Shown here: positions 9,401-22,652 of the stretch, one piece after another
Numbering within the stretch: the stretch's first letter is position 1
Layout of the letters: each line of letters starts with the position of its first letter
NCBI GenBank assembly: GCA_003164035.1
Contig: PLRS01000081.1
Coordinates: 1 to 64,000, forward strand
DNA: 64,000 nucleotides
Direction: 5' to 3'
Source: Bryobacterales bacterium
GTDB taxonomy: Bacteria; Acidobacteriota; Terriglobia; Bryobacterales; Bryobacteraceae
Notes under the pieces: model-generated
Told to the model about the DNA's origin: nothing
Databases searched by the model: none
The model's input: only the letters and a program-made list of their open reading frames with translations
Program-made: the position numbers and the translations under genes

Positions 9401-9967
9401 TTGGTCGCCCAGTATGACGCGTGGCGGGGCGAACGCACGCGTGCGGAGAAAGCCGAGAAGCGGTTGATGCCCGGACTCAAGATCGGAATTGCGCAGCAGC
9501 ACTCCTGGCCCCTAGAAGAGGGACGGCGGTCTACTGGAACTGGCTATTATTTTCAGGTCACCAATCTCAGCGAAAGCGAGACCCTTGAATCGGTAAGGGC
9601 CCAGATAATGTCAATTGAGCCGAATGAGGTTAAGACGCTAACTTTTCCTCTCCCGATGCACATAAGGGACTTGGATTATAAGACCGCCGAGACCTCCTTA
9701 AATCCAAAGGCGATCATAGGATTCGACATAGCTACTGGACCAGATCGCGGTGTCAGTTCGCAAAAGCAGTTACTAATCCCATGTGTCGCCGGAGGCGATA
9801 GAGGATGGACCCCAGCTGTGCCGATCCCTACCGCTGGCCACTATCGCATGAAGGTAATAGTCAGCGCGAATAACTGTCCAGCGGAGGACACAGAATTGGA
9901 CATTTGGATAGAAAATGACTTACTCAGGTGCGTCTCCCGTCGGATTTCCGGAGTGGAGGTGCTTTGA
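9401..9967 (+). CDS. Hypothetical protein; 5' end probably frameshifted
   Basis: 188 residues from a TTG at 9401. The start is unconvincing: the same frame is open back to 9236 without an ATG, GTG or TTG before 9401, and encodes a hydrophobic stretch (SAWLSTAGAVWALLVAQYDAW) that looks like a membrane helix. In the preceding frame a GTG at 9232 encodes another hydrophobic helix (GWMLAILAIGLQ) before stopping at 9325. Joining the two frames near 9295-9310 would give a protein with two N-terminal helices and a soluble domain. Either there is a single-base indel or sequencing error, or this is a decayed gene. The soluble part is beta-rich and of no recognised family. Confidence 0.5.
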   Translation: MVAQYDAWRGERTRAEKAEKRLMPGLKIGIAQQHSWPLEEGRRSTGTGYYFQVTNLSESETLESVRAQIMSIEPNEVKTLTFPLPMHIRDLDYKTAETSLNPKAIIGFDIATGPDRGVSSQKQLLIPCVAGGDRGWTPAVPIPTAGHYRMKVIVSANNCPAEDTELDIWIENDLLRCVSRRISGVEVL

Positions 9968-21479: not shown

Positions 21480-21681
21480 CGAGGCTTCGAAGCTGTTAGC
21501 CACGCCGGAGCGATGCATTGTGTGGTCTGGTAGGCGAGCGGTGGCTGACGTCCGATGGCCGATCGGTGAAAGCTCGCCGGGACAGCCCTCTTTCTGTCGG
21601 GTGTCGAGGCAGTCGCGTGTCGGAGGCATGGTAAGCACAGCACGGTTGTGATAGTATTTCTAAGACATACGGCCGAGCGCG
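21480..21681. other. Intergenic region, no gene seen
   Basis: No credible ORF or strong hairpin. A possible -10 (TAGTAT, 21650-21655) lies about 30 bp before the 46-codon ORF at 21682 and would serve the following two-gene unit. Confidence 0.35.
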
Positions 21682-21822
21682 ATGCTGGCAGATCTGCCGC
21701 CAATGAACCCCAACCCTTGGATTTTGCCGGCTGAACCCGTACCTGGCGCGATCTTCGTGGTTTCGAACATCGTTGGCGCCGACATCCGCTCCCGCTTCGG
21801 CGAGGAACTGGAGAACGCATGA
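21682..21822 (+). CDS. Possible 46-residue protein coupled to the PqqD-like gene
   Basis: ATG 21682 to TGA 21822 encodes 46 residues, MLADLPPMNPNPWILPAEPV..., with a short hydrophobic GAIFVVSNIVG segment and a charged end (RSRFGEELENA). Its stop overlaps the ATG of the next gene as ATGA, the usual mark of translational coupling. There is no strong Shine-Dalgarno. It may be a real small partner, a truncated remnant, or a leader. I do not recognise it. Confidence 0.45.
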   Translation: MLADLPPMNPNPWILPAEPVPGAIFVVSNIVGADIRSRFGEELENA

Positions 21823-22652
21823 ATCGCGACGAATTCCGAGTGCGGCGAACCGCCTCGGAAAACCTGGTGGTTGAGAAGTTGCCGGATGGATCGACCGCGG
21901 TGTTCGATACGAGCACCCGAACCGTCCATTCCCTGAATGCGAGCGCGGCGGCCGCGTTTGAGGCATGCCGCGAGAGTTGCACGGTGGCCGTGGTCGCGCA
22001 GGCGATGAGCGAACAGCTTCGAGACCGAGTGCCCGAGGATGTCGCGCTGGCGGCGATCTCGGAGCTGGAGGCCGCGGGCTTAGTAGTGTGTTCGGGTAGC
22101 GTAGAACCGGCCGCGCAAGCCGCCTCGCGCAGGTCCTTGCTACAGGCGGTTTCCGGGGTGGCTCTGCCGGTGGTTCTATCGCTCGGCGCGGCCGAACAGA
22201 AGGCTTTTGCGATCGGAGCCGGTTCCGGAACGACGACCAGCACCACGACAACAACAACGGCAGCCCCCACGACTACCACGACCACCACCACCACGACGAC
22301 AACCACAACAACCACCACGACGACAACCACCGCGTTGCCGTCGGCCGTCGCAAGCCCGGGCGGCGTCTGTCCAAATAGCACTCCCACTACGTTCACGATT
22401 ACCGGAACGGGCACGCACTTCACACAGGGCGCCACCACGGTAGCCACGTATGAACCCACCGATGTGACGTCCGCGGTGACGTACACGGACGTAACGGTTA
22501 CCAGCGCAACCAGCATGACCGTCGTTGCTCCGGACATCGATTTGGACAGCGGTGATTTCTACATTACCCTGCAGATTACCACCGTGCTGGAGGGTGGCTC
22601 CGAGATCGTGCTCTGCCCGCCCATTCATGTTTTCTACGGTTTCTGCGGCTGA
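21819..22652 (+). CDS. PqqD-domain protein with internal Tat-like segment, poly-Thr linker and exported domain
   Basis: 277 residues in four parts. Residues 1-95 resemble a PqqD-type peptide-chaperone domain (VVEKLPDGSTAVFD, TVHSLNASAAAAFEAC, AISELEAAGLV). Residues 103-131 read SRRSLLQAVSGVALPVVLSL, a twin-arginine-like signal or membrane helix, oddly placed inside the protein. Residues 138-171 are almost all Thr, with 21 in a row, encoded by mixed ACN codons. Residues about 180-277 look like a beta-sandwich of IPT/TIG type (TFTITGTGTHFTQGATTV) ending in CPPIHVF. The order implies a cytoplasmic PqqD domain joined to an exported stalk and head. No radical SAM or kinase gene that PqqD proteins usually serve is nearby. 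Confidence 0.7.
   Translation: MNRDEFRVRRTASENLVVEKLPDGSTAVFDTSTRTVHSLNASAAAAFEACRESCTVAVVAQAMSEQLRDRVPEDVALAAISELEAAGLVVCSGSVEPAAQAASRRSLLQAVSGVALPVVLSLGAAEQKAFAIGAGSGTTTSTTTTTTAAPTTTTTTTTTTTTTTTTTTTTTALPSAVASPGGVCPNSTPTTFTITGTGTHFTQGATTVATYEPTDVTSAVTYTDVTVTSATSMTVVAPDIDLDSGDFYITLQITTVLEGGSEIVLCPPIHVFYGFCG

Follow-up and report, generated by a model that had tools for sequence, protein, structure and literature searches.

In the 64-kb window, by which we mean the whole stretch of 64,000 nucleotides of Bryobacterales contig PLRS01000081.1 that was analysed, one gene encodes a RiPP-type recognition domain (RRE, PqqD-like), a twin-arginine (RR) signal-like segment, a run of threonines and a beta-rich tail (Table 1). 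We give a probability of about one half to the hypothesis that the product is a precursor with its own recognition domain in cis, the tail of which would be modified by a kinase and a nucleotidyltransferase and exported by the RR signal. The fusion of a PqqD-type domain, an RR segment and poly-Thr in one open reading frame, reported in the initial annotation, is real. The accompanying idea of an RRE-type domain in cis with a putative exported part was essentially right, and the sequences point to an apparently undescribed peptide-related system with a kinase as partner.

Table 1. Features of the fusion gene and its surroundings (positions in the window).
Feature	Position	Strand	Basis or remark
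RRE (PqqD-like)–signal–Thr stalk–tail gene	21819..22652	+	277 aa; one of two genomic copies, without linkage to kinase and nucleotidyltransferase
RRE/PqqD-like domain, residues ~11–88	21849..22082	+	Profile matches, AF2 model, structure comparison
Twin-arginine signal-like segment, residues 103–131 (SRRSLLQ...ALPVVLSL...AFA)	22125..22211	+	Sequence, alignments
Ser136 in G-S-G motif	22224..22226	+	Invariant in subtype alignment (5 rows)
21 consecutive Thr codons, residues 151–171	22269..22331	+	Codon count
Beta-rich tail, residues ~172–277, 3 Cys	22332..22649	+	Low-confidence model, alignment, order-wide tail matches
46-codon ORF overlapping the gene start	21682..21822	+	Not conserved in the paralogue

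Absence of the fusion from relatives, named in the initial annotation as grounds for doubt, was not observed: related genomes, mostly of Acidobacteriota, do encode the fusion. Within the phylum, a profile of residues 1–131 (A1) had matches (E 0.001) in 104 of 297 genomes, many over the PqqD part alone. By our own count, 40 places in 25 of these genomes had matches with E ≤8.2e-26 that covered the profile from position ≤8 to ≥127 and so included the RR segment. A search of named genome contigs with a Cys-tail profile (A2) yielded 75 loci, chiefly from Acidobacteriota (Pyrinomonadaceae, Blastocatellia). Eight records bore other titles (Gemmatimonadetes 3, Myxococcales 3, Anaerolineae 1, Betaproteobacteria 1); these taxon labels may err, since the records are MAGs. 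A scan of genome contigs with the window N terminus alone found no relative. We gathered 111 distinct family proteins, 109 of them complete, after merging identical proteins and dropping a PqqD protein without signal (L076) and a broken frame (L164). Counts over this family are not independent because its members are related. Several tails per genome occurred, for example as three tandem copies. At locus L094 (1713–3739), three tandem family genes encoded differing Cys-rich tails, and neither kinase nor nucleotidyltransferase was found in the 12-kb piece. In the member at L068 (7759–8655), the RRE was interrupted by a long low-complexity insertion with GSRQ-type repeats. Pfam and NCBIfam searches with the members of alignment A4 returned PqqD families and scattered weak matches; none of the libraries used names the fusion. 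No description of it was found in the open-licence PMC literature by searches aimed partly at the partner enzymes.

The family genes were commonly accompanied by genes for an HprK-related kinase and a PF14907 nucleotidyltransferase. Distinct family genes flanked on each side by 3.5 kb or more numbered 75. Of these, 58 had the kinase within 3 kb, 62 the nucleotidyltransferase, 53 both and 67 either; eight genes, the window copy included, had neither. Partners mostly lay on the same strand (kinase 81/86 matches, nucleotidyltransferase 82/85), with median gaps over all 111 genes of 72.5 and 103 nt, respectively. These loci had been picked by the family profile, and some of them trained the partner profiles. 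Ten further loci from the order search, available as 2.2–3.5-kb pieces, contained the nucleotidyltransferase in all ten cases and the kinase in eight; in the remaining two (G539 and G540) the kinase was found in larger pieces. Partners were located by six-frame profile searches, as longest-ORF calling misses genes beneath antisense ORFs. Three of the kinases matched TIGR04352 (HprK-related kinase A) at 44.6–60.3 bits, under its cut-off of 200, and a PDB sequence search with one kinase gave no match at E 0.01. The nucleotidyltransferase matched PF14907 above the curated cut-off. The expectation of modifying enzymes around homologues was borne out for a kinase. For radical SAM or ligase enzymes it found no support, the recurrent neighbours being the kinase and the nucleotidyltransferase; radical SAM did not appear in the 25 families listed out of 65 for the neighbours (149 sampled ORFs). 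This sample, drawn from 324 ORFs at 40 related loci, was dominated by glycosyltransferases and polysaccharide-synthesis enzymes (Glycos_transf_1 16, Polysacc_synt_2 13, Epimerase_2 12, Glycos_transf_4 11); the housekeeping families TsaD, ACCA and SSB were tallied too.

The SRRSLLQ hydrophobic segment noted earlier was confirmed. In the window protein it consists of the RR pair and a hydrophobic stretch with A-F-A at its end, and in a 49-row alignment R104 and R105 were invariant. An RR pair preceded the hydrophobic stretch in 106 of the 108 complete proteins that reach 125 aa, to which the RR and Cys counts were confined, and had the form S/T-RR in 83. A motif P-x3-[S/T]-x3-P was present within the segment in 93/106 members, against an average of 1.6 for shuffled segments; the window protein has kept P117 and S121 and lost the final proline. 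In our judgement, this conservation exceeds what a plain signal peptide usually shows. An AxA-type site ([AVS]xA in the expected range) followed the segment in 95/106 members. The family thus has the sequence layout of Tat substrates, with RR before a hydrophobic segment and an AxA-type site after it. Tat profile matches were scattered: of three relatives scanned, L079 exceeded the TIGR01409 cut-off, and at E 0.01 TIGR01409 and PF10518 each matched 1 of 43 members; the window protein had no match to the Tat profiles of Pfam and NCBIfam. Export of the tail is suggested by the RR signal together with the parity of the tail cysteines, and the route is probably Tat.

The number of cysteines after the signal, counted from 22 residues past the start of the motif, was even in 104 of 106 members, two proteins without a recognised RR (L068, L165) having been excluded. 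Tails with six cysteines were the most numerous (61), followed by those with 8 (22), 0 (9), 10 (6), 2 (4), 4 (1) and 12 (1). The two odd cases, with three cysteines each, were the window protein and one L113 protein. Among 46 non-redundant tails, 35 had a non-zero even number, two an odd number and nine none. The even pattern fits disulfide-bonded exported peptides, and single members weakly matched knottin-like Pfam families. The tails were mostly short and variable; the usual one is a Cys-rich peptide, and the Thr-rich stalk and beta tail of the window protein represent a minority subtype. Its run of 21 threonines was verified and is encoded by mixed codons (ACC 10, ACG 6, ACA 4, ACT 1). The beta domain described as TIG-like had no TIG profile match; what stood of that description were strands modelled over residues 231–270 at low confidence (block pLDDT 52–61). 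The VIA list for the window model contained no TIG/IPT structure for the tail, which excludes nothing. Matches to the tail alone were found in open frames of 602–3977 residues from the same order.

Candidate acceptor residues lie just after the signal. Among the 95 members with a recognisable AxA-type site (the other 11 of 106 were omitted), core position +3 was Ser in 48, against a background of 10% Ser, and Ser or Thr occurred within core positions 1–4 in 87. This set consists mainly of related Pyrinomonadaceae, Thr and Ser are frequent in the tails anyway, and the automatic cleavage cut was misplaced in some rows (e.g. L077, L080). In the Thr/beta subtype, G135-S136-G137 was invariant in all five rows (window, C136, G001, G058 and L065), making Ser136 a candidate kinase acceptor.

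We also considered that the protein might be a membrane-anchored scaffold. Its RRE would remain cytosolic, the RR segment would be an uncleaved anchor and the tail would sense or bind something outside. The kinase and nucleotidyltransferase would then have a polysaccharide precursor or something else as their target, and the protein would regulate surface polysaccharide synthesis or serve it as an adaptor. The abundance of polysaccharide genes in the neighbour sample and the occurrence of the beta tail domain in large open frames agree with such a role. We nevertheless consider it unlikely: the AxA-type site is widespread, and short variable tails in multiple copies per genome are product-like rather than sensor-like. 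Polysaccharide loci are moreover also the setting of the clusters for linear polyphosphorylated peptides (LPPs), in which the peptide is the substrate (PMC13381572).

The precursor hypothesis has to accommodate the isolation of the window copy, the odd cysteine number, missing final proline, low-confidence tail model and weak structural match of its product, and the scarcity of Tat profile matches in the family. None of the partner genes, for the kinase, the nucleotidyltransferase or a family 2 glycosyltransferase (GT2), was present in the 64-kb window. The genome has one close paralogue, on contig C136, with 83% identity over residues 1–131; the N-terminal part and the Thr stalk are common to both copies and the tails differ. 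The paralogue lies in the order HprK-related kinase, PF14907 nucleotidyltransferase, poly-Thr/tail fragment without RRE, family gene, GT2. PF14907 occurred only there in the own genome (8.0 Mb, E 0.01). The fragment (L008 ~9800–9960, G000 contig C136) may be what remains of an exchanged tail or of a tandem copy since lost. The window copy could instead be a non-functional or drifting duplicate, left over from the C136 locus, in which the Thr repeat has expanded and another tail has taken the place of the original. This would explain its lack of linkage to the enzymes, the presence of a fragment without RRE at C136 and the difference between the 5' regions of the two copies. Decay is doubtful, however, given an intact reading frame, the mixed Thr codons and a pairwise dN/dS of 0.23 between the copies over residues 1–135; this value suggests constraint on the RRE half of the window copy, although the C136 copy alone could account for it.

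The 46-codon ORF upstream exists as the initial annotation described, its TGA overlapping the ATG of the gene; the claim that it encodes a coupled partner did not stand, as the ORF is missing in the paralogue. Both copies of the gene share the 14 nt preceding the ATG. Farther upstream an indel in the paralogue shifts the frame, and the frame ending ...GELENA has no ATG, GTG or TTG. The product (P0002) had no profile match in any library searched, and a PHROGs search gave no match. With no ORF at the corresponding place in the paralogue and no profile match, a small-ORF partner was rejected; judged by sequence, the ORF is probably an untranslated leader or a chance ORF. A TGTGATAG element (window 21647–21654) was present upstream of both copies, 164 nt from the start in the window and 60 nt at C136, and is possibly part of a promoter.

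Within the order, relatives of the GT2 gene after the C136 copy were detected at E 1e-40 in 6 of 257 genomes, the own genome counted. At four of the seven GT2 loci (C136, C74, G539 and G540), either the PqqD system or a PqqD protein was encoded. At G539 and G540, the order was family gene, GT2, kinase, with a divergent nucleotidyltransferase; their short tails contain Thr and Pro and were not flagged by the Thr-rich scan, and the G540 family gene has a frame break at an ambiguous stretch. At the C74 locus (L076 4610–9033, G000), two GT2-type genes stand in tandem, together with a separate PqqD-like gene and a gene for a Thr/Pro-rich protein with an RRSFVRR signal, which could be the window fusion in split form. 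The recurrence of this GT2 beside PqqD genes makes O-glycosylation of the Thr stalk plausible. The three other loci lacked the system, one of them lying at a contig end. In two of the seven (G014 and G507) the GT2 neighbours look DUF4157/eCIS-related. The occurrence of GT2 without the system in these two contexts weakened its candidacy as a strict partner. The same GT2 type adjoined large proteins with this DUF4157/eCIS-like appearance in two genomes (L177 9626–17823, L205 303–6785).

The PqqD-like identity of the N terminus, proposed at the outset, is supported by sub-cut-off profile matches and by an RRE fold in the predicted model; a complete lack of PqqD matches, which the initial annotation had named as a counter-argument, was thus not observed. 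PF05402 matched residues 28–88 of the window protein (E 9.2e-4, 19.9 bits; curated cut-off 23.4) and TIGR04353 residues 23–89 (E 1.1e-4, 23.1 bits; cut-off 35). Three relatives (L073, L083 and L079) passed the PF05402 cut-off with 33.1, 28.6 and 32.1 bits, and all 43 members of alignment A4 matched this family at E 0.01. The AF2 model of the window protein, built with 49 sequences, had strands at 16–20, 26–30 and 35–39 and helices at 41–52, 56–67 and 73–85, with block pLDDT of 93–95 over residues 21–90. The order of three strands and then three helices in solved RREs is present in the predicted models of both the window protein and a Cys-tail relative. The best solved-structure matches of the window model were the lasso-peptide RREs TbiB1 and lasso B1, at VIA Z of 7.6 and 7.2, a level that according to the tool's warning may reflect a common arrangement; Foldseek gave a best E of 0.051 with probability 1.00. 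By themselves, these matches are no more than suggestive. The Cys-tail relative L103 reached a Foldseek E of 2.9e-3 and VIA Z of 9.4–9.9, with TbiB1 at 9.9; at E 0.001, Foldseek gave no match for either model. A PDB sequence search with profile A4 returned nothing except the PqqD structure 5sxy, at E 0.092. The sub-cut-off PF05402 match of the window protein and the alignment of winged-helix proteins to parts of its model, at Z slightly below the RREs, could indicate a vestigial winged helix that binds neither peptide nor enzyme, in an ordinary surface protein merely co-transcribed with the kinase pair, but this is very unlikely given the matches of all A4 members to PF05402, the Z of 9.9 to TbiB1 of one of them and the joint conservation of fusion and operon.

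The AF2 model of a Cys-tail member (mean pLDDT 86.9) contained a five-residue strand, 124–128, inside the signal segment. Its only partners of equal length were RRE strands, so we infer that it may dock on the RRE like a leader; the window model had no strand in this segment.

For the precursor hypothesis, we propose the following sequence of events. The N-terminal RRE, whose fold is predicted, would fold in the cytosol and dock the HprK-related kinase and the PF14907 nucleotidyltransferase, and it may hold the RR-hydrophobic segment as an in-cis leader strand. The kinase would phosphorylate a Ser or Thr just past the signal, often the core +3 Ser and here perhaps Ser136. The nucleotidyltransferase, possibly with the GT2 in the Thr subtype, would add sugar at that residue or on the Thr stalk. 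The RR segment would then export the tail, with Tat as the likely route. Most tails would emerge as disulfide-bonded peptides, and the window protein would present a mucin-like Thr stalk and a beta domain at the cell surface. The window copy would be an additional substrate, served in trans by the C136 enzymes. The data themselves support the predicted RRE-type fold, the RR-signal layout, the cysteine parity, the operon and the constraint on the RRE half. That the tail is modified, at which residue and in what order, that Tat is the route and that the window copy is served in trans is inferred from the precedents paeninodin, pseudomycoidin and LPPs.

A more far-reaching proposal, which we put forward only tentatively, is a one-chain class of exported modified peptides that unites recognition domain, leader, export signal and product. 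The RRE would clamp the RR segment until the two enzymes have completed a phospho-glycan on the tail, and then release it for export, in a manner comparable to Tat proofreading chaperones. Tails would be freely exchangeable among disulfide knots, Thr/Pro mucin-like stalks and beta domains. Such a protein would carry a self-contained tag for modification in the cytosol followed by export, and would connect exported acidobacterial proteins with HprK-like kinases and PF14907 enzymes. If the recognition domain is borne by the substrate, pathway mining would change, since the precursor would be the RRE protein itself. RREs have been described either as proteins of their own or within larger biosynthetic proteins (PMC7470986). 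In an RRE survey, 21% of PF05402 proteins are larger than a discrete RRE without a second Pfam domain (PMC12710340), and fusions of the present kind could account for some of them.

The family shares its fold and PF05402 with PqqD of PQQ biosynthesis, but here an export signal and a tail are fused to the domain and the partners are a kinase and a nucleotidyltransferase. The two models of the HPr-rel-A system (TIGR04352 kinase, TIGR04353 PqqD_rel_X) both matched weakly, all under their cut-offs, and the 74 positions of TIGR04353 span the PqqD part only. Tailoring of Ser by an HprK-like kinase and a nucleotidyltransferase is shared with the lasso peptides paeninodin and pseudomycoidin. According to reviews, an HPr-kinase homologue phosphorylates the C-terminal Ser of paeninodin, and hexoses on the phosphate of pseudomycoidin need the nucleotidyltransferase (PMC8498205, PMC9266682), with a contribution of host glycosyltransferases not excluded (PMC9266682). 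Unlike these peptides, the present proteins carry the RRE in cis and show no lasso-type core. Neither lasso cyclase nor B2 protease appeared among the 25 listed of the 65 neighbour families.

The closest comparison is with LPPs (Nat Commun 2026, PMC13381572). There an RRE, an HprK-like kinase and an NTP transferase are clustered, as in this family and at the C136 copy. Variable precursor C termini, polysaccharide-gene surroundings, signal-peptidase-like cleavage and a kinase target at core Ser3 are further likenesses. The LPP kinase LppK puts several phosphates on that residue, and the transferase LppN left detectable products unchanged in the published host (PMC13381572). LPP clusters also encode an SpI peptidase and an MsbA-like transporter, and their leaders have a YxxPxVL... 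motif (PMC13381572). Neither the peptidase nor the exporter appeared among the 25 listed of the 65 neighbour families here, and of the motif YxxPxVLxHQxIxFETxxS, YxxPxVL and FE[TA]xxS were each found in 0/108 family proteins. The LPP RRE is discrete, the precursor separate and the distribution mainly in Bacillota (PMC13381572), whereas the window protein, the C136 copy and the collected members, the last of which were selected by profile, combine RRE and RR-signal precursor in one chain with a Cys-rich or Thr-rich tail. LPPs are defined by their discrete RRE and leader motif; as both are absent here, we place the fusion apart from LPPs, among the RRE-guided peptides tailored by a kinase and a nucleotidyltransferase.
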